Shown here piece after piece: positions 19,805 to 44,798 of a stretch of 64,000 bases of DNA. How positions within the stretch are numbered: position 1 is the stretch's first letter; each line of letters begins with the position of its first letter. The notes under the pieces are model-generated. The model was not told where the DNA came from and searched no databases. It was given only the letters and a program-made list of their open reading frames with translations. The DNA comes from Dyella lipolytica. GTDB taxonomy: Bacteria; Pseudomonadota; Gammaproteobacteria; Xanthomonadales; Rhodanobacteraceae. Where the stretch lies: assembly GCF_030160075.1 (NCBI RefSeq), contig NZ_BSNQ01000003.1:800625-864624 (forward strand). The letters run 5' to 3'. Position numbers and translations under genes: made by a program.

Positions 19805-21064
19805 TCAACTGGGAACGATCGCACTGAATCCGGGAATGAGCACGTCAAAGGCCCGCTGGACGAACCAGCCGATCGCCAAAGCCACGATCAACAACGATCC
19901 GCATCGAAACATCAGCCGTTGGTAGAGCCATGTCGTGCGCAGCAGGTAGGCCAAAGGCAGGAAAGCGAGCACGATGGCTTCCTGACCGACCTCCACCCCG
20001 ACGCTGAACCCGCCGAGTGACGCGGCCATGGCGCCGGCGGGCAGTTGCAGGCCAGAGAGCGCGCTGGCAAAACCTAACCCGTGGATGAAACCGAAGGCAA
20101 AGGCGATCAGCCAGACACGCTTGTTCACGAGGGGATAGAGGTTGTTGAGCGCCGCGACCATCACCGAGAGCGCGATACCGGACTCGACCAGACGACTGGG
20201 CACATGCACGATGCCCAATACCGCGAGCGATAACGTCACCGAGTGCGACAAACTGAAGGCGGAGACCACCTTGATGACGTCGAGACATGGCGGCCAAAAC
20301 CGAGTCGCTGCCTCCCAACGATAACGGGGGCGTGGAGTCATCGCGGCCATGAGCGCACCCGTGGTCTCGGTCAACAAGGCACCTTTTCGCCAGGGCGAAT
20401 GATCTGAGAACGCGCGACGCCGGACCAGTACAGCCGGCAACAACAGGGAGAGCAGAAACAGGATGTGGTCGACACCCGTCCAAATGTGCCAGATGCCGTC
20501 GGTTACAAAACTCTTGAATTCTCCCCAGCGATCCGGCACACGCAGATTCAAGCTGGCCGAGGGGTTACTTGGTCCCAGTACCGCCCCCGCAATTTTTTCA
20601 CCAGCATGAATCGTCACGATGCCGCGGTGGTACGGATCCAGGTCATACATCAACTGATAGACGACCGTTAACGTGCTTGGGATGTTCTTATCGCAAACCG
20701 CATCGAACAGAATGACGCCATAGGTACCATCGGTATGGTCGTCGATCATCTGTCCCGTCGGCTGCAAGGCGCAAGTGAGGCCATCGCCCTTGATCGTCAG
20801 TCGGGACAGGGCATAGCTCTCAATGGCCGCACGGTGCGACTGCACCTCACCCCACGTGATAGCACCGTCATGGTTGGTATCGATTCCAATTGCAAAATCG
20901 AGATCGCGCAACGCAATGTCCCATTGGGCATGCATGATGTGGTCGTTGCGTGGATCGATCTGCAAGGTTAGGTAGGCATCGCTCTCCTTGTGTGCGAATG
21001 CATTCAATGACACCACGCCCATGATCAAGCCAAACAAAGAGATCAACAGGCGGCGCGCGCTCAT
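19805..21064 (-). CDS. HupE/UreJ-family membrane protein with EF-hand-like loop
   Basis: 419 residues with a signal peptide and a periplasmic N-terminal domain that holds a calcium-type loop DTNHDGAITWGE (residues about 62-73). The membrane part then has the family motif GIWHIWTGVDHILFLLSLLLP and SLSHSVTLSLAVLG, LNNLYPLV, GFIHGLGFASAL. HupE/UreJ proteins are thought to move nickel or other metals, but this long N-terminally extended branch is uncharacterised. Its start overlaps the TPR gene stop by 4 nt. It is the last gene of a three-gene operon. Confidence 0.85.
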   Translation of the reverse strand: MSARRLLISLFGLIMGVVSLNAFAHKESDAYLTLQIDPRNDHIMHAQWDIALRDLDFAIGIDTNHDGAITWGEVQSHRAAIESYALSRLTIKGDGLTCALQPTGQMIDDHTDGTYGVILFDAVCDKNIPSTLTVVYQLMYDLDPYHRGIVTIHAGEKIAGAVLGPSNPSASLNLRVPDRWGEFKSFVTDGIWHIWTGVDHILFLLSLLLPAVLVRRRAFSDHSPWRKGALLTETTGALMAAMTPRPRYRWEAATRFWPPCLDVIKVVSAFSLSHSVTLSLAVLGIVHVPSRLVESGIALSVMVAALNNLYPLVNKRVWLIAFAFGFIHGLGFASALSGLQLPAGAMAASLGGFSVGVEVGQEAIVLAFLPLAYLLRTTWLYQRLMFRCGSLLIVALAIGWFVQRAFDVLIPGFSAIVPS

Positions 21065-22362
21065 GGGCCACGACCCAAAGCGTTGGATTGTGCCGAATTC
21101 GTTGGCGAAGACTGCAGCTGTGCAACCAACGGATTGATCGTGACATCGTCCAGGTGCGTGCGGGCGACGAAGTCGAGCACCGGTGTGGCAGCGGCTCGGT
21201 CATGGTTGGCCAACGCGGCTTCGAGATAAACCCGTACGTCTTTCGGAGATCGCTGCACTTGCCAATTTTGTTTCGCTAGATCGAGCGCCGCTTTTGGATG
21301 GTGCAATACATGCAAGGTGTAACTGGATCGCTCGCGCATAAAAACTTCATCGCCGCGTTGGTCCATGGATTGGAAACGTGCGTTCATTTCCGTAATGTCC
21401 TCTTCAGCCTGCGGTGTCCCCAATGCATGTTCCGCCGTTACCCGTATCAGAAAGGACGTGTCCGACTGCGTATCGTCACCGACCAGAGCGATCGCATCCT
21501 GCGCACGCCCCTGGTCCAGCAGGAACTCGCCGTAGTCGGCCAGCAGGAAGTTATCGCCGGGTGTCCATTGCAAGGCCTGCTTGAAATGCGCGTCGGCGAT
21601 ATCTGGTTTGCCCATGCGTGCAGCCATGTCGGCCATGAGCCCTTCCACCCAGGCCCTAATCACTGGCGGCGCCTTGGGGCCGGGATCCTCTACGAAAGAG
21701 AGCAGCGCGTAGGCTTGAACGGTGTGTCCGGTAAGTGTGCGCAGCGCAGCGGTGCACAGGATCCCCATGAAATCGCTGCTGGCATTGGCGAGATGAACAC
21801 AGGCGTCGTTTGCTATCGCATCCTCGCCTTGGACCATCGCTACCGTGGCCAGCGTTAGCCACGCCTGGGCATTGTTGGGATCGCGCTTGAGGATCTGCGT
21901 TAGCTCGTTGCGTGATGCCTGAAAGGCATGTCGGCTTTGCTGGATCGTAGCGTGTACCAGCAGCACCGAAATGGGCGGGGTGGGTTGTTGCATGTACGGT
22001 GTGATAACCGCCATGGCGCGACCTAAAAATCGGGCATCGCCTGTTGACCGTCCGTAATCGATATAGGCCTGCGCAAGCGCGACGGCCTTCGTGACGTCGT
22101 TCGGGTGTCGCTGCAGATCCGCACGCAACTGATTGAATTGGCGGACGCGGGGATCGGTAGTGGGTGGTACGAGCTGAAGTACAACGGTCGTATTGACCGG
22201 CAGGTAGGGCGTCGTGTGATTTGCATAGACGGCGCAGCTCAATAGAAGTGCGATCCCACAAGAGAAAAAACGCCGTGCACCATAACCGGTATACGAGTGG
22301 TGCACGGCGCCAGAACCGTCTCCGTGTTCGAGGCTCATGCGGGAGATGCGAAGACGGTTCAT
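21061..22362 (-). CDS. TPR-rich exported protein
   Basis: About 433 residues. A hydrophobic stretch (FFSCGIALLLSCAVYA, residues about 32-47) acts as signal or anchor; the real start may be ATG 22338 or later. Helical repeats typical of tetratricopeptide repeats follow (for example LTQILKRDPNNAQAWLTLA and FKQALQWTPGDNFLLADYG), suited to binding a partner protein in the periplasm. It sits 9 nt after the DUF4331 stop and overlaps the hupE-like start by 4 nt. A scaffold or assembly role for its neighbours is inferred. Confidence 0.75.
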   Translation of the reverse strand: MNRLRISRMSLEHGDGSGAVHHSYTGYGARRFFSCGIALLLSCAVYANHTTPYLPVNTTVVLQLVPPTTDPRVRQFNQLRADLQRHPNDVTKAVALAQAYIDYGRSTGDARFLGRAMAVITPYMQQPTPPISVLLVHATIQQSRHAFQASRNELTQILKRDPNNAQAWLTLATVAMVQGEDAIANDACVHLANASSDFMGILCTAALRTLTGHTVQAYALLSFVEDPGPKAPPVIRAWVEGLMADMAARMGKPDIADAHFKQALQWTPGDNFLLADYGEFLLDQGRAQDAIALVGDDTQSDTSFLIRVTAEHALGTPQAEEDITEMNARFQSMDQRGDEVFMRERSSYTLHVLHHPKAALDLAKQNWQVQRSPKDVRVYLEAALANHDRAAATPVLDFVARTHLDDVTINPLVAQLQSSPTNSAQSNALGRGP

Positions 22363-22371
22363 GGCCAGAAC

Positions 22372-23895
22372 TCAGTTGGCGGCCACGCCATTTACGCCGT
22401 TAGGCGAACCCGGAAGCGGCGTCATCAGGTAAGGAAATTGAGGGAGGTAAGTGTCGGCCGGGTATTCGTCTCCCATCAGCTTTTCGGTGGCGACGGTGGG
22501 TCCCGGTGAGCGCGCGCCGTCGGTAAACGGAGCCCCGCTATTGGGGTCCTTGGTCTCATCACCACACACCCCGATCGAAGGACCGCATAAAGCACCTTCC
22601 TCCACACGCAGCGCGATATCGACCACATCATCGTAAGGACGGCGACCGTTGGGGAATCCGGCCAAATCACCGCCAAGCACGCCCAGATCGTTTTGCTTGG
22701 CCGGCGGGGTCGGCGGGGTGCTTGTATTCAGGCGTAGTTCTTCTGAAGGCGTGACATGCGCAGGCTGATTGAGGCCGGGTACACCGGTCAGGAATACCGT
22801 GATCAGGTCGTAACGCGGAGTATGTGGAACCGCCGCGCCAAACAGCGCGTTAACCAGCACGGGTAGCGTGGGATTCGTAACATATTTCAGGAACTGAGCG
22901 TCGTTGTGCGGGTGACTACCGTTGAACTTATCCTTGTCGGGCAAGCCGATCACCAGCTCGTTGACCAAAGGTTGCCCCAGTCGTGACACCTGCACATAGT
23001 CTTTCGACCACTCGTTAGACGCGTTGGCCAATGAGTCATCGTGGTCGGGATCAATCTCGCGATGCCGCGGGATGCTGGCTGTCGTCCAGGCGCCGATGAC
23101 GGGACTCCCTTGGCTATCTCGTAGACAGGCCGCCGGTATTTCGAGTGCGAGGGTATCGACGTTCTTATCCGTCAGCGCATTGTGAGTGGATTCGCGCGAT
23201 CCCAATGGATTGAGGTTGACCAAGTCGAAGATTTCACCCAAATCGGCGACAAAACCATCCTTGCGTTGTCCGGCGAATACCCGTCCATGTCCCGAGCATC
23301 CAGGAATGACCACGTCATACACGTAGTTATTAGCGTAGTTGGCATAGTCGTTGATCGACTTGAAGCCGATGTTGTCGACCGGTTTGGTGAAAACGGGGGA
23401 ACCGCCCATGCTGCTAACGAGTGGCCGGCCTCTCGCGGTTTCGGGATTGCCATCAATGAGCTCGACCGTATACGTTTCAATGCGATTGAGTGCATTTTGA
23501 TTAGTGCTGGAAATTCCACCGATGTTGAGTAACGGCACCGCAATTGGTTGGCCGTTAGCCCCGGTCGGAACCGCAAGATTTTTGTAGGTATTTGTGAAGC
23601 GGAACCGGAAGGTTAGATCTGATCGAGCATGTCCCGCGTTGTCGATATGAATGTCGTAGTACGCATTCGGGTCAAGTGCGTAAAAATTGGGGCCGCCACC
23701 GGGGGTTTGTAAGGGGTTGTAGTTGGCGAGGAAGGTGACGTATCCCTGACGTCCGGTCTCGTAACTCATGAACATGTAGAAGTCGCTTCCGTCGACTTGG
23801 GGCATCGTGCTAATGAAGGGTGCTTCACGATGGCTCGAGGCGATCGCTAACACCGGCACTAGGGTAAGAGCCAGAAAAAGTGGTTTGAGTTTCAT
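22372..23895 (-). CDS. DUF4331 secreted protein
   Basis: 507 residues, starting with a signal peptide (LFLALTLVPVLAIA) and the hallmark mature N-terminus SSHREAP. The pattern GSDFYMFMSYE, then beta-rich sequence with NPLQTPGGGPNFY and conserved Asp/His positions, fits DUF4331 along its full length. No biochemical function is established for the family. It is the first gene of the DUF4331-TPR-HupE operon, a grouping seen in other proteobacteria. A predicted ECF promoter lies about 225 bp upstream, giving a long leader. Confidence 0.9.
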   Translation of the reverse strand: MKLKPLFLALTLVPVLAIASSHREAPFISTMPQVDGSDFYMFMSYETGRQGYVTFLANYNPLQTPGGGPNFYALDPNAYYDIHIDNAGHARSDLTFRFRFTNTYKNLAVPTGANGQPIAVPLLNIGGISSTNQNALNRIETYTVELIDGNPETARGRPLVSSMGGSPVFTKPVDNIGFKSINDYANYANNYVYDVVIPGCSGHGRVFAGQRKDGFVADLGEIFDLVNLNPLGSRESTHNALTDKNVDTLALEIPAACLRDSQGSPVIGAWTTASIPRHREIDPDHDDSLANASNEWSKDYVQVSRLGQPLVNELVIGLPDKDKFNGSHPHNDAQFLKYVTNPTLPVLVNALFGAAVPHTPRYDLITVFLTGVPGLNQPAHVTPSEELRLNTSTPPTPPAKQNDLGVLGGDLAGFPNGRRPYDDVVDIALRVEEGALCGPSIGVCGDETKDPNSGAPFTDGARSPGPTVATEKLMGDEYPADTYLPQFPYLMTPLPGSPNGVNGVAAN

Positions 23896-25144: not shown

Positions 25145-25424
25145 AAAGTTAACCCGTCTGAGGAAGTCATTCGGTTGCCGGGAGGCCCATGTCAAGGGCG
25201 GTTACCGGGAAAATCAAATCCAATCACGCTGATCGATTCGACATGGACGAAGACATAGGCCAACCAGAATTCAGCATGTTCTGACTTGCTAAAAAATCAT
25301 GGCTCATGATGGAGTCACCTCGGTTTACGCGATGACGACCCACGCACGGCTAACACCCGCTCATTACATGCGCGCCAGAGGAGCAACCTGTCTATCGATA
25401 GCTTGGCGGTGAAGCGTCCGCATC
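25145..25424. other. Gap between lipocalin and GST genes
   Basis: No gene and no copy of the TGCATCC/CGTA promoter seen here. A short dyad ATCATGGCTCATGAT occurs near 25297-25311. Confidence 0.4.
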
Positions 25425-25991
25425 TTATTTAACTCCTACCGGGTCGTCACTACCGTTTGACCACTGCTGCGGTACATTTCGAATTTTCGAAATGTCGTAC
25501 CCCAATGCTTTCACTTTGTTGATGAGTATCACGTAGTCGTGAGGGGAAACATTAGGCGTGCGTGCCATGATCCACGTGTAATCGCGGGCATCGCGCGCGA
25601 CGATAGTCTCGCTGTAGTCCTGGCTTAAGTACGCCACGATGTATTGGGCCCGCAACGGCCAGAATAACTGCACGCCCCATACCGCGTTACCTGTATTGGC
25701 TTTGACGATGCCAAGCGAGTGGATCTTTTTTTCGGGAGCGCTAAAGCTGCCGTTATTGAAGCGGAACGCGGTGTAGACGTTGCCGTCGGACTGCAGCGTA
25801 TACGTTTCCACTGCGTTGTAGGCATTCTTTTCGAAACGCGTTGGAATCGTCGCAATCACGTACCACGAACCCATGAAGCGGGTGAGATCCACGTGGCTGA
25901 CTGGCTGGATCGGTGGGAGATCGCTTGCGCAGCCATTCATCGAAGCCAGCATGAATCCGCAGGAGGCAAGCAGTGTCTTAGACATTCGCAT
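25425..25991 (-). CDS. Lipocalin (Blc-like), end of lipid operon
   Basis: 188 residues. N-terminal signal peptide with a probable lipobox (SMNGC). Lipocalin signature FMGSWYVIATIPTRFEKN, then strands matching YTAFRFNN and WIMARTPNVS, the family's C-terminal motif. Blc-type lipocalins bind fatty acids or lysolipids at the outer membrane. ATG 25991 has GAGGAAT about 8 nt upstream; the longer frame to 26279 runs into the methyltransferase gene. It lies 29 nt after that gene and is probably the last gene of the operon, fitting a role in handling modified lipids. Confidence 0.88.
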   Translation of the reverse strand: MRMSKTLLASCGFMLASMNGCASDLPPIQPVSHVDLTRFMGSWYVIATIPTRFEKNAYNAVETYTLQSDGNVYTAFRFNNGSFSAPEKKIHSLGIVKANTGNAVWGVQLFWPLRAQYIVAYLSQDYSETIVARDARDYTWIMARTPNVSPHDYVILINKVKALGYDISKIRNVPQQWSNGSDDPVGVK

Positions 25992-26020
25992 AATGAGATT
26001 CCTCAACGTAACGGAAAACC

Positions 26021-27100
26021 TTATCGACGGATGAAGCGATAATGAGCGATCTGCCACTCCTGTCCGTCGGCATAGCCGAACAACTCCGCACAGGCCATCC
26101 AGAACATGCGCCAGCGCTGAAACCACCGTGTCGCGTTGGCGCCATATGCATGGGTGAGGACCTCCATGACTTTGCCTCGCTGGCGATCTTGGCGCTCCAG
26201 CCACTGGTTGGCGGTGCGTTGGTAGTGGGTGCCATCGACGAGCCAACGTTGTTCCAACGACAGATCGCGCTGAAACCACAGCAAGGCATCAGCAGACGGC
26301 ATCACGCCGCCGGTAAAAAAATGCCGTCCCATCCAGTTGTCGTCACCGGCTGTTTCGAACGGATACATCAGCGTGCGATGAACAAAGATGTGCACGAAAA
26401 ACTTGCCACTCGGTTTTAACCATGACGCAATGCGTCCCATCAGCTGCTCGTAGTTGCGCATGTGCTCGAACATTTCCACCGAAACGCAGCGATCGAACTG
26501 CGCCGGTTCGAGTTGCAAGGTGGTTACGTCGTGCGTGATTACTTGTACATTGAACAAGCCACGCTTGAGGCACTCGCCTTCGATATGCAGCCGCTGCCGA
26601 TGCGAGTTGGATACGGCGATGATGCGAGAGGCGGGATAACGTTCCGCCATCCACAATGTCAGCGAACCCCAGCCGCAACCCAGCTCAAGAATCGATTGAC
26701 CGTTGGCAAGTTCGGCGCGTTCACCATAGAGCGTGAGCATGGCCCGTTCGGCTTCCTCCAGGGATTCCTCTCCCGTCGGGTAATAACAACCCGAGTATTT
26801 AAGGTTCGGCCCGAGACACAGCTTGAAGAAATCAGCCGGCAGTTCGTAATGCTGCGCATTGGCCGCATCGGTGTGAATAGCGATAGGGCTGTGCCGAAGC
26901 TCTTCAATGAATAACTGAAAACGTTGCGCCTGTGCACCGACGCCACCGGTACGTTCCTGACGCAGGCGTTGCGCACAGAGCTGACGGATGCCATGGCGCA
27001 GCAGGGTGTCTGGAATCAGGCCGCGCTCGGCGAGCCCCAGCAGGCCGGAAGCCGGATGATCGGCGGCCCGCGACGGAGCGTCGATAGACAAGGTATTCAT
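26021..27100 (-). CDS. SAM methyltransferase, cyclopropane-synthase/CNMT-like
   Basis: About 359 residues. The SAM-binding motif ILELGCGWGSLTLWMAERYP and post-motifs VSVEMFEHMRNYEQLM place it in the cyclopropane fatty acid synthase superfamily, in the branch resembling coclaurine N-methyltransferases. The region LKYSGCYYP corresponds to the synthase substrate pocket. It differs clearly from the second family member at 28433. ATG 27100 overlaps the DUF1295 stop by 4 nt; the frame's apparent 642-residue length upstream is a shadow of DUF1295. A second lipid methylation step is inferred. Confidence 0.85.
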   Translation of the reverse strand: MNTLSIDAPSRAADHPASGLLGLAERGLIPDTLLRHGIRQLCAQRLRQERTGGVGAQAQRFQLFIEELRHSPIAIHTDAANAQHYELPADFFKLCLGPNLKYSGCYYPTGEESLEEAERAMLTLYGERAELANGQSILELGCGWGSLTLWMAERYPASRIIAVSNSHRQRLHIEGECLKRGLFNVQVITHDVTTLQLEPAQFDRCVSVEMFEHMRNYEQLMGRIASWLKPSGKFFVHIFVHRTLMYPFETAGDDNWMGRHFFTGGVMPSADALLWFQRDLSLEQRWLVDGTHYQRTANQWLERQDRQRGKVMEVLTHAYGANATRWFQRWRMFWMACAELFGYADGQEWQIAHYRFIRR

Positions 27101-27891
27101 ACGCGGGATCCTTTGCGAGCAGATTTGGGGAACCATGGAAACAACATCGATGTGCTTTGCTGGTAACGGCGATAGGCATCGCCACGTGTGCGTAGCGCCT
27201 GCGCCTCCGTAAACGGAATCCCGCTGATCCAACGCAGGAACACGAACATCACGATCGGTCCAGCCCAAGCTAGCCACGCCAACGGCGAGCCCATGGCCAG
27301 TAATACGTATGCAAACCAGTGCAGCCATTCGAAGAAGTAGTTGGGATGCCGCGAATAACACCATAAACCGTTGTTGCAAATGCCTCCGCGATTCGCCGGG
27401 TTGGCACGAAAGCGAGCGAGTTGACGATCGGCGATCGCCTCGCCCAAGACCGACACGATCCAGATCACGATGCCGCCGACCCAGCTCAGAATGCTCAGGG
27501 CTGTATTGGCAGCCACCGCCAGAAAGGGCAGGGCGAATAGCACCACTAACAACGCTTGAAACTGAAAGAAGCCGAAGAATTTGCCTTGACTGCCCTGCCA
27601 GTGCGCTCGCAGAGAGTGATACCGCCCATCTTCGTTTTCGCTGCGTACACGCCGCCATAGATGTACGGCTAAGCGTAGTCCCCAGGTTCCGCCGAGGATG
27701 GCCACCGTCACGCGTGGCGTGGTTGCGCCGCGACCCAGCAACGCCAGCAGAATGGCACTCGCCGCCAAGCCTGATGCCCACAGTACATCGACGATACCTG
27801 CGTTGGTGTGCTTTACTTGCCAACGCCAACCGAACGTCATCATTGCCGCGGCGAGTAACCAGAGGAGCAATAACGTAGCCGATGTGTTCAT
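27097..27891 (-). CDS. DUF1295 membrane protein (steroid-reductase-like fold)
   Basis: About 264 residues with 6-7 hydrophobic helices. C-terminal signature of the isoprenylcysteine methyltransferase/steroid 5-alpha-reductase-like group: GLWCYSRHPNYFFEWLHW and RRYQQSTSMLFPWFPK. Relatives reduce or methylate lipid substrates in the membrane, so it could be a NADPH-dependent lipid reductase. Both ends overlap neighbours by 4 nt (ATGA). Confidence 0.88.
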   Translation of the reverse strand: MNTSATLLLLWLLAAAMMTFGWRWQVKHTNAGIVDVLWASGLAASAILLALLGRGATTPRVTVAILGGTWGLRLAVHLWRRVRSENEDGRYHSLRAHWQGSQGKFFGFFQFQALLVVLFALPFLAVAANTALSILSWVGGIVIWIVSVLGEAIADRQLARFRANPANRGGICNNGLWCYSRHPNYFFEWLHWFAYVLLAMGSPLAWLAWAGPIVMFVFLRWISGIPFTEAQALRTRGDAYRRYQQSTSMLFPWFPKSARKGSRV

Positions 27892-28436
27892 AAGGCACTC
27901 CGATGCTGCGCGCGTGACGTGGCAGTGGCCTGCGTCCAGCGACGCGCAAGCGTCGTGAGCAGTGGCAATGCCAAGCCCCAGCCCACCGCTAATGCACACC
28001 AGGCGTGCCAGGACGGGGATATCACATGGGCCGCGTGCCAGCCATCGGATGCGGCGGCGTACGAAAGCGGCCCACCGATAGCGCCGAACAGGGCGGCCAA
28101 CCATGGACGCGACTGCAAATAGCCGAACAGCGGCAAGATGGTGAATGCAAAACACGCCCAGAGAGCGAGGATCCATGCCGGCGCGGGCAACAGCGACCAG
28201 GTTGCGGTGTACGTAATCCAGCCTGCACGCACCCAGAACGTCTCCATCGCTGCACCTAGCACCAGGGATACAGCTAGCAGGCGACATTCGACAGCGACGT
28301 GCCGCGACACGAAGAGACGCCATGTGACGAATACGGCAGCAGCCAATACGCCGGGCCACGCAAGACCGTGACCGGCACCGCTTACCGTGCAAAACCACAC
28401 GGCTTCATAAGCGAATAGCGTCAACCAGAACATCAT
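27888..28436 (-). CDS. DUF2878 membrane protein
   Basis: 182 residues with about five hydrophobic segments (for example MMFWLTLFAYEAVWF and FAFTILPLFGYL) and the family pattern GAAMETFWVRAGWITY. No known activity. DUF2878 genes are typically found beside cyclopropane-synthase-like and DUF1295 genes, as here. It overlaps both neighbours by 4 nt. Confidence 0.88.
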   Translation of the reverse strand: MMFWLTLFAYEAVWFCTVSGAGHGLAWPGVLAAAVFVTWRLFVSRHVAVECRLLAVSLVLGAAMETFWVRAGWITYTATWSLLPAPAWILALWACFAFTILPLFGYLQSRPWLAALFGAIGGPLSYAAASDGWHAAHVISPSWHAWCALAVGWGLALPLLTTLARRWTQATATSRAQHRSAL

Positions 28437-29713
28437 CCATGCACTCCGTGCGCCTGCCTGCTTTGCGGGCCGCGATAGCCCGGCTTGGCGAGCACGAAAT
28501 GTGCGACACCGATCGAGCGTTCACGGAATCCGCCTTCGCAATAGGCGAGATAGAACTCCCACATACGAACGAAGCGTTCGTCAAAGCCTTGTTGTCGAAC
28601 GCATTCGCGCTGCCTCAGAAAGCGCTCTCGCCATGCTTGCAACGTCTTGGCGTACGAGAGGCCAAAGTCGCTAAGTTCGATAAGCGCCAGGTCGCTGCTA
28701 CGCGTCTTGGCGTCCAGCATTGCCTGAATCGATGGTATGAAGCTGCCGGGAAAGATAAAACGTTTGATGAAATCGACCGACTTCAACGCTTGCTCAAAGC
28801 GATGATCTTCGATCGTGATGGCCTGCAGCACCGCAAGTCCGTCTGGTTTCAGAAGGCGCGCGCATTGCGCGAAATACGTATCGAGAAATTCCGCACCGAT
28901 GGCCTCGACCATTTCGATCGAGACAAGCTTGTCGTACTGCCCATCGAGATCACGGTAGTCCTTCAGCAGTACGGTGATCTTGTCGGACAGGCCGGACTCT
29001 GCCACCCGCATCGTTGCCAGTGCGTGCTGCTCTTGCGAGATCGTGGTCGTGGTGACACAACAGCCGTAATGGGTCGCCGCATGCAGTGCGAAACCACCCC
29101 AGCCCGTGCCGATTTCCATCACATGATCGCTCGATCTCAGTTGCAGTCGCTCGCAAATACGATGGAGTTTCCGGCTCGACGCGGCTTCCAACGTGGCTAT
29201 ATCGTCCTCCCATAACGCCGAGGAATACATCAGGTCCGACGAGAGAAAAAGCTGGAAGAAATCGTTGCCGAGATCGTAATGAGCAGCGATATTGCGCCGG
29301 CTGCCCTGGCGTGTATTGCGTCGTAATGCATGCCATGCGCGCATCGCAACGCCGGCGAGGCGAGCGAGACCCGTTTCCATGCCGTCGAGTAGATCGCGGT
29401 TGCGTACCAGCAATTGCACTAATGCAACCAAATCGTCGCACTCCCACAACCCATCCATATAGGCTTCGCCCGCGCCAACACTTCCGTGCGTGGCCACCAT
29501 GCGGTAGAAGTCCATGTCCTTGACGTGCACATGCACCGACAGATCAGGATGCTGCGAAGCGGGCGTCCCGAATTCCTCCATGCCCAGGGCGTCGTGCACT
29601 AGCAGCTGGCCGTGACGCAACTGTGCCATCTGCTTGAGGATTCCTCCTCGCAAAAGGCGGAGCGCGGTACCGACTTCAGGTAAGCGCGGGCTATCAACGA
29701 CGGCATTCATCAT
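28433..29713 (-). CDS. Cyclopropane-fatty-acyl-phospholipid synthase family protein
   Basis: 426 residues, the length of the proteobacterial CfaA/UfaM group. Motifs: SAM-binding VMEIGTGWGGFALHAATHYG, SIEMVEAIGAEFLDTYF (catalytic Glu), ITIEDHRFEQ (His) and FIKRFIFPGSFIPS. The Cys found in E. coli Cfa (YSC) is Ser here (LMYSSALWED), usual for this subgroup. It methylates unsaturated chains of intact phospholipids, forming cyclopropane or branched products. Its place beside the FAD and DUF1365 genes in an ECF/ChrR locus matches the Rhodobacter cfaA and RSP1091-type genes induced by singlet oxygen. Confidence 0.92.
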   Translation of the reverse strand: MMNAVVDSPRLPEVGTALRLLRGGILKQMAQLRHGQLLVHDALGMEEFGTPASQHPDLSVHVHVKDMDFYRMVATHGSVGAGEAYMDGLWECDDLVALVQLLVRNRDLLDGMETGLARLAGVAMRAWHALRRNTRQGSRRNIAAHYDLGNDFFQLFLSSDLMYSSALWEDDIATLEAASSRKLHRICERLQLRSSDHVMEIGTGWGGFALHAATHYGCCVTTTTISQEQHALATMRVAESGLSDKITVLLKDYRDLDGQYDKLVSIEMVEAIGAEFLDTYFAQCARLLKPDGLAVLQAITIEDHRFEQALKSVDFIKRFIFPGSFIPSIQAMLDAKTRSSDLALIELSDFGLSYAKTLQAWRERFLRQRECVRQQGFDERFVRMWEFYLAYCEGGFRERSIGVAHFVLAKPGYRGPQSRQAHGVHG

Positions 29714-30504
29714 GAACCTCGCGAAAGATGGGGATGGTCATAGACCGGATTACGTTTGAGCCATAACCGCAGCGCATGCCAACGAATGGCACCGACGACT
29801 TGCATCGTCATCAAGGGATAACGCCACAGCACGGTGGCCAGCGCGCGGTCATCCAGCGGGCGTCGGGACAGGCTGAGATGTGCATCGAATTCGCGCTGCC
29901 CTTCTTTCAGTACATCCATGTGAACGTGCAGGCTCTCGCCCGGTGCGGTGAAACGCCAGGCATACTCTCGATTCATCGGCATGAAGGGCGATACGTGGAA
30001 GGATTTAGCGAACTCCCAGGCCAGCGTGCGTCCGCGCCGTTGTGCAGCAGCGACGGGCAACACATACGCATGACGCTCTTTCCATGGGGTGTTCGTGATT
30101 TCGGCAACGATCGTCACTAACGTGTCGCCATCGGTGGCATAGCAGTAATAGAACGTAACCGGATTGAACACATGGCCGAAGTAACGCACATGCGTGAGCA
30201 TGCGTATCGGCCCGGTTGGACGTTCGCCTAGGGCGTTTTCGACGGTGCAACGCACCGCTTCGGAAAGGGATTGATCGGCCGGGCCGAGGTAATCGCTGCG
30301 GCGAAACTCTGCGAGATTGCGGCGATTCACTGACCACAGCCGAGATGCCGCGAATACGTGATCGATCTCGTCCAGGTCCAGATAGAGCTGTGCGATGCGA
30401 TAGTGAAATGCATGCGGATGCGGTGCCAGACGCCGGTGTTGCACGACGCCTTCGTACACGGCGCTGGCCGGACGGCGCTCGTCGTTCCTCAAACCCACGT
30501 TCAT
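29710..30504 (-). CDS. DUF1365 protein
   Basis: 264 residues. Family landmarks: VYEGVVQHRRLAPHPHAFHYRI at the N-terminus, FGHVFNPVTFYYCY in the middle and PLMTMQVVGAIRWHALRLWLK at the end. No activity has been proven; the gene is almost always between an FAD-dependent oxidoreductase and a cyclopropane-synthase-like gene, and is taken as part of a lipid-modifying complex. 4-nt overlaps at both ends imply coupled translation. Confidence 0.92.
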   Translation of the reverse strand: MNVGLRNDERRPASAVYEGVVQHRRLAPHPHAFHYRIAQLYLDLDEIDHVFAASRLWSVNRRNLAEFRRSDYLGPADQSLSEAVRCTVENALGERPTGPIRMLTHVRYFGHVFNPVTFYYCYATDGDTLVTIVAEITNTPWKERHAYVLPVAAAQRRGRTLAWEFAKSFHVSPFMPMNREYAWRFTAPGESLHVHMDVLKEGQREFDAHLSLSRRPLDDRALATVLWRYPLMTMQVVGAIRWHALRLWLKRNPVYDHPHLSRGS

Positions 30505-31790
30505 AGCGCATGCTCCATGGCCACGGCACTTATGGCCTGCTCAGCGGCCGGCCAGGAAACGCCAAGCCCACGGGCCACTTCGACGGCACTGCGCATGCCG
30601 TCTTCGTGAAACCCCCAGCCCCAGTACGCACCCGCGAACCAGGTGCGCTGTGGGCCCTGGATCTCCGCCTTACGTTGCCGCGCCGCGACGGAGGCGCGGG
30701 TATAGACCGGATGGTGGTAATGCATGCGGCGCAATATTTTGGCCGGGTCGATCACGTCCGTGCGGTTGAGCGTGACCACGAGTGGTTCCGGCGCGTCGAT
30801 CCCTTGCAGCAGATTCATGCAGTAGCTAACCGTACAGGCGTCATCCCTGCGCTTTGGAACGAACGCATTCCACGCAGCCCAGGCCTTTTTCCTACGCGGT
30901 AACAAGGACGCATCGGTGTGGAGCACCACATCGTTGGCTTGATAGGGGATGGCGCCCAAGATGCTGCGTTCACTGGGGGTGGGATCGGCCAGCGTGCCCA
31001 GTGCCTGATCGCTATGGCACGCCATCACGACATGATCGTAACGATCGACGCCTTCGTGCGTGCGAATCGCCACGCCATCCGGTCGACGATGCACACAGAG
31101 CACTGGACAATTGAGGCGTTCTTGCACGAGCCAGCGATGGCGCATCGCGTGAATGTAACTATGCGATCCGCCTTTCACCACGCGCCATTCCGGCCTGCCG
31201 CTCACTTGCAGCATTTGATGATGGTGCATGAACTGCGCGAGATAGCGTGCCGGAAACGCCAAGATGTCCCGTGACGGCGACGACCACAGCGCCGACGCCA
31301 TCGGTACCAAGTGCTCATCGCGAAATGCAGCTCCGTAACGGTGTTCGGCGAGCCACTCGCCAAGCGTTGGATCGCTCGCGTCATCCTGCAGCAGAGAGGG
31401 CGCTTCGCGATAGAAGCGAAGAAGGTCTCGCACCATACCGATGAAGCGTGGAGAAATAAGATTCCGGCGTTGACAGAACAACGCGTCGAGTGACGTCGCG
31501 TTGTATTCCACGCCACTCGCTTCGCTATGCACCGAGAAGCTCATGGTGGTTGGCTGCGAGGCCACACCGAGCTCGGCGAACAAGCGGGTCAGCAGAGGGT
31601 AGTGCGTCGGATTGAAGACGATAAAACCGGTATCCACGGCGTAGTGCCGGCCGTGCAGTTCGATATCGTGCGTATGCGTGTGTCCGCCGAGGTACGCATT
31701 GGCCTCAAACAATGTGACCGAATATTTGCGAGATAGCAGCCACGCGGAAACCAACCCCGCGATGCCCGATCCGACCACGGCAATGCGCAT
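30501..31790 (-). CDS. FAD-dependent oxidoreductase (flavin amine-oxidase type)
   Basis: 429 residues. The N-terminal dinucleotide-binding motif is VVGSGIAGLVSAWLLSRKYSVTLFEA, followed by GGHTHTHDIELHGRHYAVDTGFIVFN. The C-terminal FAD segment is TWFAGAYWGWGFHEDGMRSAVEVA. It belongs to the family annotated beside cyclopropane-synthase genes in singlet-oxygen regulons; a related alphaproteobacterial protein acts in desaturating methylated chains on the route to furan fatty acids, but equivalence here is inferred. It overlaps DUF1365 by 4 nt and starts 3 nt after the desaturase stop. Confidence 0.9.
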   Translation of the reverse strand: MRIAVVGSGIAGLVSAWLLSRKYSVTLFEANAYLGGHTHTHDIELHGRHYAVDTGFIVFNPTHYPLLTRLFAELGVASQPTTMSFSVHSEASGVEYNATSLDALFCQRRNLISPRFIGMVRDLLRFYREAPSLLQDDASDPTLGEWLAEHRYGAAFRDEHLVPMASALWSSPSRDILAFPARYLAQFMHHHQMLQVSGRPEWRVVKGGSHSYIHAMRHRWLVQERLNCPVLCVHRRPDGVAIRTHEGVDRYDHVVMACHSDQALGTLADPTPSERSILGAIPYQANDVVLHTDASLLPRRKKAWAAWNAFVPKRRDDACTVSYCMNLLQGIDAPEPLVVTLNRTDVIDPAKILRRMHYHHPVYTRASVAARQRKAEIQGPQRTWFAGAYWGWGFHEDGMRSAVEVARGLGVSWPAAEQAISAVAMEHAL

Positions 31791-31793
31791 CGA

Positions 31794-32792
31794 TTATTTC
31801 CTCGTCCTTGTCGCCACCCACGCAGGTACCGGTCTGAGGTCATGCACCAGGCCCACCATCGCCATTGACCGCAGACCGTAGTAGGTCAAATCGATTTCCC
31901 ACCAACGAAATCCTTGTCGAGCTGAACCTGGATAAAAGTGATGGTTGTTATGCCAGCCTTCGCCGAAGGTGATCAGCGCTAACCACGGATTGTTGCGACT
32001 GTCATCCTGCGTATCGAAACGGCGCGATCCAAAACGATGTGCCAGCGAGTTGATCGTAACGGTCGCATGAAACAGCATCACGGTGGAGACAAAGAAACCC
32101 CAAACAAGCATCTGGCCGCCGTTGGTCCCAAGGTGGGGGGCCGTGTGATGCAGCAGCACACCCAAGCCGAATAAAAAGCTCGCGAGTGCGATGGGTACGA
32201 GTGTGTCGTAACGATCCAGCCAGCGCAGTTCCGGGTATTTCGCCAAATCCGGCACCCGTGTTGTGTCGGTACGAAATGCCTTGATCGTAAGGAACCAGCC
32301 CATGTGGCTCCAAAGAAAACCACGGATGCCCGGTGAATGCGGATCAAGCTGGGTGTCCGCATGACGGTGATGGTTCCGATGATGTGCCGCCCACCATAGC
32401 GGGCCGCGTTGCACGCACGCCGCTCCAATGAGCGCGAAGACAAACTGAACAGTACGCGAGGTTCGAAATGTCCGATGCGAGAAGTAGCGATGGTAGAAGC
32501 CTGTCAACGCGAACATGCGAATGGCGTATAGCGCCCCCGCGACCATCAACGCGATAGGTGACATACCCACCCAGATCACAGCAATGCAAGCGATGTGCAT
32601 GACGGCGAAGGGCAGGGCACGTAGCCAATCGATTTTTTCGTCGCGATCCGGGTTGGTGCCCGCGCTGGCTTCCGTATCAACCCATTGACGTAATGCCTTC
32701 AACAGAGTCGCTTTGCGAGCGCGCGTTTCGGCGCCCTCCGATAAATCTCCGCGGCCCGGTAGCGGTGCCTCGACGGGCTGGGGGATGCTCAT
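31794..32792 (-). CDS. Acyl-lipid/acyl-CoA delta-9-type fatty acid desaturase
   Basis: 332 residues, integral membrane di-iron desaturase. The three histidine boxes are present: HRYFSH, HRNHH and HNNHH (in EGWHNNHHFYPG), with hydrophobic helix pairs between them. It would make the double bond that the downstream methyltransferases use. It is the first gene of an eight-gene operon and has a predicted ECF promoter ending about 30 bp before ATG 32792. A desaturase leading this operon is not part of the Rhodobacter version as I know it. Confidence 0.92.
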   Translation of the reverse strand: MSIPQPVEAPLPGRGDLSEGAETRARKATLLKALRQWVDTEASAGTNPDRDEKIDWLRALPFAVMHIACIAVIWVGMSPIALMVAGALYAIRMFALTGFYHRYFSHRTFRTSRTVQFVFALIGAACVQRGPLWWAAHHRNHHRHADTQLDPHSPGIRGFLWSHMGWFLTIKAFRTDTTRVPDLAKYPELRWLDRYDTLVPIALASFLFGLGVLLHHTAPHLGTNGGQMLVWGFFVSTVMLFHATVTINSLAHRFGSRRFDTQDDSRNNPWLALITFGEGWHNNHHFYPGSARQGFRWWEIDLTYYGLRSMAMVGLVHDLRPVPAWVATRTRK

Positions 32793-32821: not shown

Positions 32822-32850
32822 GATACGTAAATGCGGCGCTGCCGGATGCA
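32822..32850 (-). promoter_or_regulatory. Predicted ECF promoter, lipid operon
   Basis: Minus strand: TGCATCC (32850-32844), 16-bp spacer, CGTATC (32827-32822). The leader to the desaturase ATG would be about 22-25 nt. Confidence 0.8.
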
Positions 32851-32899: not shown

Positions 32900-34318
32900 T
32901 TACGCCCCGCGCCAGGACTGAAAGGCGCTCAATGCTTCTTCGCGCGATGCTCTTACATCAACCATCGGTGATGGATAGCCGCTGCGCTTGAGGACAGACG
33001 GTTCATGCCATGGCTCATGCAGCAGATCGACAGGTAAATCCGCCAGTTCGGGTAACCAGCGACGCAGATAGGTTCCCTCCGGATCGAATTTTCGTGCCTG
33101 ACTGACGGGATTGAATACGCGAAAATAGGGCGCTGCATCGGCGCCACAACCCGCCACCCACTGCCAGCCGAGCGTATTGTTGGCGAGATCCGCATCAACC
33201 AAAGTGTCCCAAAACCATCGTGCGCCATGGGACCAATGCTGACGCAGATTCTTGGTCAAGAAACTGGCAACGATCATGCGGACGCGATTGTGCATCCATC
33301 CGGTATGCCACAGTTCGCGCATGCCTGCATCGACGAGCGGTATCCCCGTGCGTCCTTGCTGCCATCGCATCAACTGAGCATCGTTGGTCGGTGCCCAGGG
33401 GAAATTGGCGAAACGCGGGTTGAAGCTTTCGGTGGTCGTACGGGGAAAGTGATACAACAAGTGATAAGCAAACTCGCGCCAGCCCAATTCGCGTAAATAC
33501 GGCTCGATATCCGGTCGTCGGCGCGTATCCACGCGTTGCGTATGACGATGGATCGCATGATGGATTTGTCGCGGCGATATTTCGCCAAAGTGCAGATGCG
33601 GAGAAAGGCGCGATGTGCCGTGTCGCGCCGGCAGATCGCGTCCGGCCGCGTAATCGACGATTGCATCGTCGCAGAACAATTCCAGGGCGTCCTGAGCGCC
33701 GGCTTCACCAGGTCGCCATGTGTCGCCGAAGCCCTCGTCCCAGCGTATGCGCGGAAGCAGCTTGAGCGCCGCTAGGGTTAAGCCGGCTGGTAGCTCAACC
33801 CACTTAATACCGATGGGTTCCAACAATGGCGGCGTCACCGTAATAGAAGGACGCAGATTGCGCCAATACGGCGTGAATACACGATAGGGTTCGCCTTGTT
33901 TGGTTTCTACTTGCCACGGCTCTGACCATAAATTCGCGGAATAGGTGTGTACGGCGACCCCTTGCTCGCGCAAGGCGGCTTTGATTTGTGTATCCCGCGT
34001 GACGGCCGCGGGTTCATAACGACGGTTCCAATAAACCGCCGCAGCGCCGCTCCGCTCGATGACGTTACGCAGCACGTGAAGGGTATCGCCTTGCAGTAGA
34101 TGCAGGTTCGCTCCGCATCCTCGCAGACGTCGTTGCAGTGCTTCCAGTGAGTGATGCAGCCACCAATGGCTGGCCGCACCGGCATTCCACGGAGCCTCTT
34201 CATGATCGGCATGGATATAGAGCGGCAAGACCCTTGCATTCGTCTTGCAAGCCGCCGCCAGGGCAGTGTTATCGGTCAGCCGCAGATCGCGGCGAAAGAG
34301 CATGATCGCAATGGTCAT
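32900..34318 (-). CDS. phrB: Deoxyribodipyrimidine photolyase (class I CPD type)
   Basis: 472 residues with FAD and antenna domains. It starts IMLFRRDLRLTDNTALAAA and has the FAD-binding and lesion-contact region TGIPLVDAGMRELWHTGWMHNRVRM and DTLVDADLANNTLGWQWVAGCG. It repairs cyclobutane pyrimidine dimers using light. It lies 79 bp after chrR on the same strand, with no clear separate promoter, so it is probably in the sigma-chrR-phrB transcript, as phrA belongs to the sigma-E regulon of Rhodobacter sphaeroides. Confidence 0.95.
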   Translation of the reverse strand: MTIAIMLFRRDLRLTDNTALAAACKTNARVLPLYIHADHEEAPWNAGAASHWWLHHSLEALQRRLRGCGANLHLLQGDTLHVLRNVIERSGAAAVYWNRRYEPAAVTRDTQIKAALREQGVAVHTYSANLWSEPWQVETKQGEPYRVFTPYWRNLRPSITVTPPLLEPIGIKWVELPAGLTLAALKLLPRIRWDEGFGDTWRPGEAGAQDALELFCDDAIVDYAAGRDLPARHGTSRLSPHLHFGEISPRQIHHAIHRHTQRVDTRRRPDIEPYLRELGWREFAYHLLYHFPRTTTESFNPRFANFPWAPTNDAQLMRWQQGRTGIPLVDAGMRELWHTGWMHNRVRMIVASFLTKNLRQHWSHGARWFWDTLVDADLANNTLGWQWVAGCGADAAPYFRVFNPVSQARKFDPEGTYLRRWLPELADLPVDLLHEPWHEPSVLKRSGYPSPMVDVRASREEALSAFQSWRGA

Positions 34319-34397: not shown

Positions 34398-35060
34398 CTA
34401 CAGTTTGATAAGGGGTTGCAGCATCCGAGCGACCCAGCCGTCGAAACGCAGAGGCGCATCGGTCGCTGCCACGCAGATACACGGTGAACCCGGTGACGTG
34501 ATGGGTTGGTGCGTGATGTCGCAATCGAGATCCGCCACATCGCCCGGGCTGAAATGTCCCAATGTATCGTCGTAAGAGCCGCGCAAAATCATCGTCAGCT
34601 CGTTTCCTTGATGGCTATGCATGGGCACACTTTTCCCGGGACCAATGCGCAATAGCATCAGATTGCCGTCCGTGACATGCGTGGCCCGAATGCGGTGAAC
34701 ACCTGGCGCAACCATACGCCAGCGTAACGCACTGAATGTGGAGCCGAAATAAGGATGCAAGGGCGAAGGAAGCGCGTCTGGATCGTTGTTGCGCAGATGG
34801 TCGTGATGCTGTCGCGGCTCGTCTTGTTGCGTGGTGGCCAGTTGAGCAAGCATCGCCTCGCGCGCCACCGTGGATGGCATGGTGGATGACTGTTGCTGTG
34901 CTAGCAATAGACCGCCGATGGCATCAGCGTTGCGCAAGCTTTCGCGACAGTTCTGGCAAATGCCCAAATGCGCTGCTGCCACCACGGCGAGCGCGGTCGG
35001 TAAAGCACCGGCCGAATAGCCGACGATGGTAACTTCGTCGAGATGGTGCCGAGGTGTCAC
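34398..35060 (-). CDS. chrR: ChrR-family zinc/cupin anti-sigma factor
   Basis: 220 residues. The N-terminal anti-sigma domain has the exact ChrR zinc ligand set H6, H31, C35 and C38 (HLGICQNC). The C-terminal cupin also keeps its metal ligands: H-x-H-x3-E in HSHQGNE, and the later His in ITHQP. In Rhodobacter, ChrR holds its ECF sigma until singlet oxygen or organic peroxide triggers release and degradation. It overlaps the sigma stop by 4 nt. Full conservation of both metal sites suggests a working sensor. Confidence 0.93.
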   Translation of the reverse strand: MTPRHHLDEVTIVGYSAGALPTALAVVAAAHLGICQNCRESLRNADAIGGLLLAQQQSSTMPSTVAREAMLAQLATTQQDEPRQHHDHLRNNDPDALPSPLHPYFGSTFSALRWRMVAPGVHRIRATHVTDGNLMLLRIGPGKSVPMHSHQGNELTMILRGSYDDTLGHFSPGDVADLDCDITHQPITSPGSPCICVAATDAPLRFDGWVARMLQPLIKL

Positions 35061-35692
35061 GGTGTAGCCCTCATGCTGTTCCGAAGCTTGCAGAACGCTC
35101 TTCTCAAATGTGATTTGACCGACCCCAGCGGCATATCCAGTTCTTGCGCGATTTCACTGTGACTCTTGGCTTCGAAGTACGACATACGGACTAATCTCGC
35201 TTGCACTGGCGACAATCCGTCGATGGCTTGCTTGAGACCGGCTTGATCGGTAAACGACTCCGTCATCGACTCCGAGGTGGAGAGCTCCTGCTCATCCATC
35301 CATTCCATGCCTTCTTGCATAGGTAGCCAGGTCGGTTCGCTGCGGGCATGGTCGATATACAAATTTCGCGCGACGCGAAAAAGCCACGTGGAAAGGCTGG
35401 CGCGCGCTGGATCAAACAGATCGGCGCGGCGCCATAAACGCAACATGGCTTCCTGCACCAGCTCTTGCCCCAACGCATCGTTCACACCGAGGCCAACCAG
35501 ATATCGCTGAAGGCGCGGCGCGAAATAGTCGTATATCCGCATGAAACTGTTGACATCGCGTCGCGTGGCTACCGCAACCATCTGGTCACACCAGTAGCGC
35601 GCATCGATAGCAGGTTGGTTTGCAATCGTGGACACGCGTCGTTTGGCCTCGAGAGGCGTAACCTTCATAGTAGTCCAGCCGATTGTCATCAT
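35057..35692 (-). CDS. rpoE: ECF sigma factor of the RpoE-ChrR type
   Basis: About 211 residues. Region 2: FMRIYDYFAPRLQRYLVGLGV ... ASLSTWLFRVARNLYID. Region 4: GLSPVQARLVRMSYFEAKSHSEIAQEL and PLGSVKSHLRRAFCKLR. The start is placed at ATG 35692 or 35689 (AAGG a few nt upstream); ATG 35668 is possible. The frame extends to 35851, past the predicted promoter, so the longer start is excluded if that promoter is real. It should direct the photo-oxidative stress regulon, including its own operon. Confidence 0.92.
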   Translation of the reverse strand: MMTIGWTTMKVTPLEAKRRVSTIANQPAIDARYWCDQMVAVATRRDVNSFMRIYDYFAPRLQRYLVGLGVNDALGQELVQEAMLRLWRRADLFDPARASLSTWLFRVARNLYIDHARSEPTWLPMQEGMEWMDEQELSTSESMTESFTDQAGLKQAIDGLSPVQARLVRMSYFEAKSHSEIAQELDMPLGSVKSHLRRAFCKLRNSMRATP

Positions 35693-35799: not shown

Positions 35800-35828
35800 T
35801 ATACGGAGGGCGCTGGCGATTGGATGCA
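35800..35828 (-). promoter_or_regulatory. Predicted ECF promoter, sigma-chrR operon (autoregulation)
   Basis: Minus strand: TGCATCC (35828-35822), 16-bp spacer, CGTATA (35805-35800), continuing as AG. It lies about 100 bp before the sigma ATG. Its presence here suggests the ChrR-linked sigma reads this motif. Confidence 0.78.
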
Positions 35829-39028: not shown

Positions 39029-39550
39029 ATGATTTCGTTCGCACTCATGATGATGCTATCGGTGCCTATGACAAGCCAGCTCGCGAATCAGCCAGTCGAA
39101 GTACTTGACCTTCAGCGATACGCGGGGCGATGGCATGAGATCGCACACCTTCCGATGTTTTTTCAAAGGCAGTGCCAAGATCAGATTACCGCTAGTTATG
39201 CATTGAATCGGGACGGGACGGTCCAGATTCTCAACGCCTGTCGCACAAAAAACGGCACCATGGATGAATCGATTGGCGTAGCGCGACCCGGCAAATGGCA
39301 AGGAGCGCTGGAAGTGCGCTTTGCGCCGCAATGGTTGGCGTGGCTGCCCATGGTATGGGCCGATTACTGGGTCGTGGATTTGGATCCCAATTATCAATGG
39401 GCCGTGGTTGGAAGCCCGTCCAAGAAATATCTTTGGATTCTTTCACGTACCCCGAGCATGCCATCACAACTCTTTGAACAGCTCACGCACCGCGCTGAAT
39501 TGCGCGGTTATGACATCAACAAGCTGGTAAGGAGCGCACCCTTGCAATGA
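39029..39550 (+). CDS. Second lipocalin family protein
   Basis: 173 residues. N-terminal signal (FALMMMLSVPMTSQLANQ), no lipobox. The lipocalin signature DLQRYAGRWHEIAHLPMFFQR is present, with RQCQ and a paired Cys (LNACRTKNG) as in plant temperature-induced and bacterial Blc lipocalins, and the C-terminal YLWILSRTPSM. AAAGAGGAATCCC precedes the ATG. It is clearly distinct from the lipocalin at 25425 and stands alone. Likely a periplasmic fatty-acid or lysolipid carrier, by family. Confidence 0.88.
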   Translation: MISFALMMMLSVPMTSQLANQPVEVLDLQRYAGRWHEIAHLPMFFQRQCQDQITASYALNRDGTVQILNACRTKNGTMDESIGVARPGKWQGALEVRFAPQWLAWLPMVWADYWVVDLDPNYQWAVVGSPSKKYLWILSRTPSMPSQLFEQLTHRAELRGYDINKLVRSAPLQ

Positions 39551-44769: not shown

Positions 44770-44798
44770 CTTACGACGACGAGCCACCACTGGATGCA
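44770..44798 (-). promoter_or_regulatory. Predicted ECF promoter, small ORF and FeS photolyase
   Basis: Minus strand: TGCATCC (44798-44792), 16-bp spacer, CGTAAG (44775-44770). The leader to the small ORF would be about 35 nt. Confidence 0.75.

Follow-up and report, generated by a model that had tools for sequence, protein, structure and literature searches.

A putative dimethyl-furan fatty acid operon next to an ECF sigma factor and ChrR pair in Dyella lipolytica

The analyzed window, a stretch of 64,000 nucleotides from Dyella lipolytica (RefSeq GCF_030160075.1, contig NZ_BSNQ01000003.1, positions 800,625 to 864,624), harbors an eight-gene operon that combines a desaturase, a flavin adenine dinucleotide (FAD) oxidoreductase, two methyltransferases (MT1 and MT2), three proteins of the DUF1365, DUF2878 and DUF1295 families and a lipocalin. 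All eight genes lie on the minus strand, as an earlier note made from the sequence had described, and every name given there is backed by Pfam. In order of transcription, the operon reads as follows:

31794..32792, minus: fatty acid desaturase, predicted to make the monounsaturated acyl substrate (PF00487, E = 3.9e-23)
30501..31790, minus: FAD oxidoreductase, UfaD-like dehydrogenase (Amino_oxidase, 3.1e-23; gene order as in ufaD-ufaO-ufaM)
29710..30504, minus: DUF1365 protein, UfaO-like, candidate for the O2-dependent furan step (PF07103, 7.6e-84)
28433..29713, minus: MT1, predicted UfaM-type fatty acyl methyltransferase (Pfam CMAS, 2.3e-79; active-site signature and tree clade)
27888..28436, minus: DUF2878 membrane protein (PF11086, 2.3e-29)
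27097..27891, minus: DUF1295 membrane protein with a reductase/ICMT-type fold (PF06966, 1.4e-67; Steroid_dh, 2.5e-8, over cut-off)
26021..27100, minus: MT2, predicted methyltransferase of the FufM/coclaurine N-methyltransferase (CNMT) type (Pfam CMAS; PDB match and tree clade)
25425..25991, minus: Blc-like lipocalin (Lipocalin_2, 3.8e-35; Blc model, 3.8e-21, below its cut-off)

The five ATGA overlaps reported from the FAD gene to MT2 (30501-30504, 29710-29713, 28433-28436, 27888-27891 and 27097-27100) were each found in place, and a gap of 3 nt separates the desaturase gene from the FAD gene. The lipocalin start was corrected to the ATG at 25991 (188 amino acids), from an open reading frame (ORF) listed from 26279, and this gene therefore does not overlap MT2. 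To examine conservation, relatives were collected in one scan with MT2 as query, of which the best 80 of at least 583 loci were used. The overlaps are largely kept in these relatives: in the 66 loci with all five upstream genes found, scoring the stop codon within ATGA, GTGA or TTGA rather than the start of the next gene, we counted five such junctions in 22 loci, four in 29, three in 10, two in four and one in a single locus. The ATGA run was nevertheless rejected as remarkable in itself, since the window has five other 4-nt overlaps between same-strand genes (21061-21064, 35057-35060, 43076-43079, 51488-51491 and 53394-53397, some with unsure starts).

By sequence, the FAD-DUF1365-MT1 segment is a predicted UfaD-UfaO-UfaM core, with all three components present together, which agrees with the earlier proposal that this core is known from furan and singlet-oxygen systems. 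In Rhodobacter sphaeroides, UfaM is reported to methylate cis-vaccenate, UfaD (RSP1091) to yield the methylated diene and UfaO (RSP1090) to form the furan, which is monomethylated (PMC7380195); the DUF1365 protein AT1G30130 has also been likened to UfaO (PMC10940516). The window resembles the Ufa pathway of R. sphaeroides and Rhodopseudomonas palustris (PMC7380195) in the three-enzyme core, in an MT1 that falls into the UfaM-type clade and in its RpoE/ChrR-type control, and differs from what is described there in that the desaturase, DUF2878, DUF1295, FufM-type MT2 and lipocalin share one operon with the core.

The assignment of MT1 was examined using the DUF1365 surroundings of the 32 among 120 sampled Pseudomonadota that carry DUF1365 (31 fetched plus the window), along with CMAS loci, labelling the CMAS proteins by gene neighborhood alone. 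The 53 CMAS ORFs sorted into 26 beside DUF1365, 18 ordinary, eight MT2-type (counted apart) and one in a wrong frame, the 18 ordinary ones coming from the fetched loci (30 loci) rather than from the complete CMAS set of the 120 genomes. We compared the positions equivalent to Cys139, Gly236 and His266 in Escherichia coli numbering, presumably ligands of the bicarbonate site. The DUF1365-adjacent proteins had Glu at Gly236 and Gln at His266 in 26 out of 26 cases, Ser, Ala or Gly at Cys139, and Ala after the catalytic Glu in 25 (Arg in the other), whereas Gly, His, Cys and a His after the catalytic Glu were found in all 18 ordinary proteins, including the genome's separate cyclopropane fatty acid (CFA) synthase (L001). 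MT1 itself exhibits Ser, Glu and Gln, and thus lacks the canonical cyclopropane synthase residues; the solved MmaA4, a hydroxymycolate synthase, reads SIEAFEHFG with a Glu at that same place. Five of the 32 DUF1365 genomes (G083, G099, G075, G020 and G119) have FAD-DUF1365 without an adjacent CMAS, and the unlinked signature protein predicted for them was found in five out of five. In a methyltransferase tree made by a quick method without bootstrap, and from which a wrong-frame ORF (L120_2662) had been removed beforehand, 37 UfaM-type proteins including MT1 formed one clade (Shimodaira–Hasegawa-like approximate likelihood ratio test, SH-aLRT, 99) apart from ordinary CMAS. MT1 was accordingly rejected as a cyclopropane synthase, the CFA-synthase signature being absent. 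A photolyase-like fragment adjoins the UfaM-type gene unlinked from FAD-DUF1365 in all five such genomes (L192-L195 and L197), an arrangement that recalls R. sphaeroides, in which phrA (RSP_2143) is numbered next to RSP_2144.

MT2 has coclaurine N-methyltransferase as its best PDB match (6.7e-74), followed by other plant N-methyltransferases. In the tree it grouped with FufM-like proteins of the genomes G407 and G428 (SH-aLRT 100), excluding UfaM and CFA synthases, so that the two methyltransferases are indeed different, as had been claimed. The G407 protein, with which MT2 shares 46% identity, is encoded at 1.036 Mb, and the FAD-DUF1365-CMAS cluster of this genome lies at 2.88 Mb; both positions are close to those expected for RPA0924 and RPA2569-2571 by gene number, given the gene total that we assume for R. 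palustris. The G407 MT2-type and G083 UfaM-type proteins are 26.0% identical, the same value as is given for RPA0924 and R. sphaeroides UfaM (PMC7380195); the sigma-ChrR pair next to FAD-DUF1365 in G083 is the reason for regarding this genome as Rhodobacteraceae-like. R. palustris FufM (RPA0924) is reported to add the second methyl group, which gives the dimethyl furan, and to work alone in vitro (PMC7380195), and it is 38% identical to Arabidopsis AT4G33110 (PMC10940516). Judged by clade and identity, MT2 is a predicted FufM-type enzyme, from which a dimethyl-furan fatty acid follows as the predicted product. The arrangement differs in that R. palustris fufM, by gene number, is unlinked to ufaM-ufaO-ufaD, whereas MT2 of the window lies inside the operon.

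Two other readings bear on the methyltransferases. The operon could serve cyclopropane fatty acid synthesis, MT1 and MT2 both being CFA synthases; both match Pfam CMAS, and their counterparts in Stenotrophomonas maltophilia are annotated in this way (CfaS1 and CfaS2), with a proposed modification of membrane lipids (PMC11832516). We hold this reading to be improbable, as MT1 has none of the three residues that every one of the 18 ordinary CMAS examined retains, and MT2 scores 252 bits to CNMT enzymes versus 101 bits to the CFA type. Hence, among the products proposed earlier, a doubly methylated furan stands as the likeliest, whereas a cyclopropane product is unsupported because MT1 is without the CFA-synthase signature and MT2 belongs to another clade. 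Alternatively, the core may produce a monomethyl furan while MT2 and DUF1295 act separately, e.g., in the N-methylation of a membrane aminolipid. Such a role would suit the plant alkaloid N-methyltransferases among the best PDB matches of MT2, the Glu-His pair kept in MT2 and the ICMT-like folds among the DUF1295 matches, but FufM-like proteins share the MT2 clade and FufM methylates a furan acid (PMC7380195), and DUF1365 is present in 8/9 MT2 genomes of the Pseudomonadota and 7/7 of the Alphaproteobacteria sampled. We therefore consider a separate aminolipid function unlikely, albeit less so than the cyclopropane reading.

Upstream of the operon and elsewhere in the window, the following features concern its predicted regulation by an extracytoplasmic function (ECF) sigma factor:

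35057..35692, minus: ECF sigma factor (sigma70-ECF, 2e-23, 82.9 bits against a cut-off of 42.9; start inferred, ORF listed to 35851)
34398..35060, minus: ChrR anti-sigma factor (TIGR02451, 174.7 bits, cut-off 124.5)
32900..34318, minus: DNA photolyase, between chrR and the operon (FAD_binding_7, 1e-85)
32824..32850, minus: predicted operon ECF promoter, TGCATCC-N16-CGTA, some 30 nt ahead of the desaturase ATG
35802..35828, minus: predicted sigma-chrR ECF promoter, TGCATCC-N16-CGTA
19805..23895, minus: DUF4331-TPR-HupE/UreJ_2 genes, predicted co-regulated (motif upstream, 24130-24156)
17107..17691, plus: fasciclin-domain protein, predicted co-regulated (motif upstream, 17032-17058)
43076..44605, minus: photolyase-related (DPRP) protein, predicted co-regulated (motif upstream, 44772-44798)

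The gene pair typical of an RpoE-ChrR regulon, an ECF sigma factor followed by ChrR, was recognized by profile matches and not by ECF group number, and a matching motif precedes both the operon and the sigma gene. The photo-oxidative setting proposed earlier is thus supported by the sigma factor, ChrR and photolyase directly upstream as well as by the motif. Within the window, TGCATCC-N15-17-CGTA was observed five times versus 0.10 expected, all five with N16; the 4.05-Mb genome contains seven N16 copies, five of them in the window and two outside (C2 and C5), and a reversed-pattern control gave none. The window match at 43037 falls within an ORF and probably arose by chance. Across the 80 related loci, the N16 spacer accounted for 82 of 87 motif matches, and one mononucleotide shuffle produced none. 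Counting from aligned desaturase starts, the exact motif was present in 43 of 67 desaturase upstream regions versus 0 of 67 gene-internal controls, twelve other spacers together reaching 1/67; a looser pattern was found in 57/67 (control, 2/67), and 7-mer counts gave TGCATCC in 28/67. Motif placement and conservation, taken together, therefore point to a probable ECF promoter belonging to the operon itself.

A comparable consensus, TGATCC-N16-CGTA, was derived by chromatin immunoprecipitation sequencing for the RpoE/ChrR-type sigma factor PSPTO_1043 of Pseudomonas syringae (PMC5507510). Its PSPTO_1043/1042 regulon is alike in the RpoE/ChrR-type pair, the −10 CGTA, the 16-nt spacer and the photolyase plus cfa cluster, and unlike in the −35 element, which is TGATCC there and TGCATCC in the window (PMC5507510). 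Scanning five window upstream regions with an R. sphaeroides-like promoter spacing returned no match, and with a looser pattern the region ahead of the DUF1295-FufM pair was empty in G407, G428 and G435; in such distant loci this pattern is uninformative because it had 36 matches in shuffled sequence. Regarding the predicted co-regulated genes, the fasciclin RSP_1409 is a reported member of the R. sphaeroides RpoE regulon. The motif-bearing fasciclin gene of the window is immediately followed by another ECF sigma gene, paired with an anti-sigma factor of the RskA type (17948-19308, plus), and an R. capsulatus pair likened to SigK-RskA has been proposed as the RpoE-ChrR counterpart (PMC7074977).

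By record title, the best 80 MT2 loci are mostly from Xanthomonadales, in addition to proteobacterial bins, four Achromobacter, two Aquabacterium and two odd labels, and the closest MT2 relative among the matches listed is that of Dyella monticola (85%). Under strict thresholds, the full eight-gene order was found in 27 of the 65 loci with enough flank, and the same order with a lipocalin not over threshold in 16 more; the remaining 22 showed other patterns, some of which are probably sorting artefacts of stop-to-stop ORFs. The desaturase is the first operon gene in most relatives. The four Achromobacter loci (L020, L031, L049 and L051) carry the operon or its 3' part with MT2 identities of 66-73%, which suggests transfer between Xanthomonadales and Burkholderiales, and the xanthomonad-like copies titled Bacillus subtilis and Eremiobacteraeota (L070 and L019) probably reflect contamination or misbinning.

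An identical gene order has been published for smlt2375-2367 of S. maltophilia, in a sigma-Ec/ChrR regulon (Ku et al. 2025, PMC11832516). There, a desaturase, FAD enzyme, hypothetical protein, CFA synthase, two inner-membrane hypotheticals, a second CFA synthase and a lipocalin follow in the same order, and the hypotheticals match DUF1365, DUF2878 and DUF1295 in S. maltophilia SJTL3 (L043). An ECF sigma-ChrR pair adjoins in both cases, with sigma-dependent expression in S. maltophilia: its nine-gene cluster was 165- to 697-fold up in a chrR mutant and reverted without the sigma factor, in one RNA-seq run (PMC11832516). Deletion of the nine genes in the chrR mutant almost reversed menadione tolerance and ceftazidime susceptibility (PMC11832516). 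The S. maltophilia locus differs in a ninth, leading gene, a chrA and a divergent sigma operon, whereas in the window the operon is preceded by codirectional sigma, chrR and photolyase genes; furan lipids are not mentioned in the accessible parts of that study (PMC11832516). The operon is therefore not unique, its order being published and recurring in many Xanthomonadales, although its chemistry is not described in what is accessible of that source.

Gene content, conservation, clades, active-site signatures, promoter motif and co-occurrence are observations of this analysis. They can be arranged into a pathway whose enzyme reactions, as far as the dimethyl furan, are inferred from characterized homologs. 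Singlet oxygen or lipid peroxide stress would free the RpoE/ChrR-type ECF sigma factor from ChrR, leading to transcription of the operon from TGCATCC-N16-CGTA. The desaturase may then supply a cis-monoenoic acyl chain as substrate, its position specificity being speculative; MT1 (UfaM) would place a methyl group onto the acyl double bond, the FAD enzyme (UfaD) would form the conjugated diene, DUF1365 (UfaO) would add an O2-derived oxygen and close the furan, and MT2 (FufM-type) would add the second methyl group to give a dimethyl-furan phospholipid fatty acid. DUF1295 would probably reduce a C=C bond in the furan lipid or its oxidation product, and DUF2878 could be a membrane partner and the lipocalin a handler of lipids at the outer membrane, all three roles being speculative. 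On balance, we consider it likely that the operon, under its RpoE/ChrR-type sigma factor, makes a dimethyl-furan phospholipid fatty acid serving as a singlet oxygen scavenger.

Several points weigh against this interpretation. MT2 also resembles N-methyltransferases, and gene position and sequence identity are what link its reference genome G407 to Rhodopseudomonas and the G407 protein to FufM. The identity of MT1 to UfaM-type proteins of Alphaproteobacteria reaches only 39-40%, and the Glu/Gln pair is not exclusive to the UfaM type: a further CMAS of G020 (L196) that is not beside DUF1365 has Glu and Gln, but its catalytic Glu is still followed by His and the tree places it apart from the UfaM-type clade. 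The exact motif is absent from 24 of the 67 desaturase upstream regions. In S. maltophilia, the sigma factor is reported to change superoxide and beta-lactam phenotypes while singlet oxygen tolerance was unchanged (PMC11832516), which speaks against plain scavenging as its role there, and no lipid analysis of the operon was found in the accessible literature for this organism or S. maltophilia.

The co-occurrence of DUF1295 with MT2 extends beyond the operon. Among the 120 Pseudomonadota, MT2-type proteins (>300 bits) were detected in nine genomes, full-length DUF1295 (E <= 5.4e-53) in 11 and both in eight (hypergeometric p = 1.7e-9). Among 193 Alphaproteobacteria, MT2 was found in seven, DUF1295 in 27 and DUF1365 in 102; the MT2 genomes carried DUF1295 and DUF1365 in 7/7 cases (p = 5.0e-7 for DUF1295), and DUF1365 occurred in 24/27 DUF1295 genomes versus 78/166 others (p = 4e-5). 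Some genomes belong to both samples, and these p-values ignore kinship. DUF1295 is directly beside MT2 in five of the seven alphaproteobacterial genomes (G111, G133, G142, G208 and G288), within 8 kb in G156 and elsewhere in G020, and in the genus g246 (of the family of G111, and including G407), probably Rhodopseudomonas, it directly precedes the FufM-like gene in 5/5 genomes looked at. G142 has an apparent sigma-ChrR-DUF1295-MT2 operon divergent from FAD-DUF1365-MT1, and G284 the order FAD-DUF1365-DUF1295-sigma-ChrR. The idea of DUF1295 as solely the partner of FufM was rejected, 20 of the 27 alphaproteobacterial DUF1295 genomes being without MT2. Genes of the same family names recur in Chlamydomonas, where the singlet oxygen response that depends on SAK1 comprises CFA1, CFA2 (also named coclaurine N-methyltransferase, CPLD27) and one gene each for DUF1365 and DUF1295 (PMC4067076).

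The predicted DUF1295 model (predicted local distance difference test, pLDDT, 94.7) shares the fold of the SRD5A/sterol-reductase/ICMT superfamily over the whole protein. Its best matches, over 205-229 residues, were the delta14-sterol reductase 4quv (Z = 14.3) and the steroid 5-alpha-reductases 7c83 (13.4) and 7bw1 (12.6), with ICMT and AtTam46 at 11.0-11.4 and the next unrelated row at 7.5, where values below roughly 13 can arise by chance in helical bundles. A profile search agreed weakly (superfamily E-values of 8e-5 to 0.24), with the plastid protein AtTam46 first at 3.2e-5. The invariant Asp and Asn of DUF1295 align with those of PbSRD5A, to which we assume a role with NADPH. Also counting against an exclusive partnership with FufM, the residues after an NYF motif vary across 35 aligned DUF1295 proteins (L051 and L060 dropped for stops), being FE/FQ in part of the set and GD/GE in the rest, and the GE type also occurs beside MT2 in G013. 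The sterol/steroid-reductase-like fold therefore makes a role as C=C reductase possible, and a methyltransferase role likewise. A reductase-like protein encoded directly upstream of MT2 could also mean that MT2 methylates an acyl double bond which DUF1295 then reduces, so that a methyl-branched saturated acid arises alongside the furan route; this seems very improbable, as FufM needs no partner in vitro to make the dimethyl furan (PMC7380195) and DUF1295 stands beside DUF1365 without MT2 in G284. Returning to the dimethyl-furan operon, we tentatively propose, as a possibility held with some doubt, that DUF1295 is an overlooked enzyme of the furan fatty acid system of Alpha- and Gammaproteobacteria and green algae, working with FufM-type methyltransferases as a membrane ene-reductase on the reactive enedione that remains after a furan lipid has quenched singlet oxygen, or on a conjugated C=C at the synthesis stage, so that the operon would both make the dimethyl furan and clear its spent form.

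The operon is ordinary as an object because operon and pathway have each been published; their joining, with this operon as a dimethyl-furan operon and DUF1295 as part of it, was not found in print in targeted literature searches. Combining furan fatty acids with Xanthomonadales names, 'furan fatty acids' appeared in none among the matches listed, and the literature on DUF1295 held none about furan lipids among the matches listed. The single study found on the operon takes it, in its accessible parts, for cyclopropane synthesis (PMC11832516). If the dimethyl-furan interpretation is true, numerous bacteria of soil and plants, with records titled Dyella, Rhodanobacter, Luteibacter, Lysobacter, Stenotrophomonas and Xanthomonas, carry a complete dimethyl-furan fatty acid operon, and the lipid can be looked for directly in bacteria that are not photosynthetic. 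UfaM-type methyltransferases can be separated from CFA synthases with the help of the Glu/Gln signature, and the DUF1295 link offers a testable role for an uncharacterized family whose algal member also responds to singlet oxygen.

Regarding the remaining features, the predicted model of the DUF2878 membrane protein (pLDDT 95.7) had no match to PDB folds at E <= 0.001, the best being 1.4. Just downstream of the operon lies a glutathione S-transferase gene (24473-25195, minus), where TGCATCC-N16-CGTA is absent. The window also encodes a second lipocalin, preceded by a weaker motif that resembles the P. syringae site:

39029..39550, plus: second lipocalin (AGATCC-N16-CGTA upstream, ATCC part 38927-38950)

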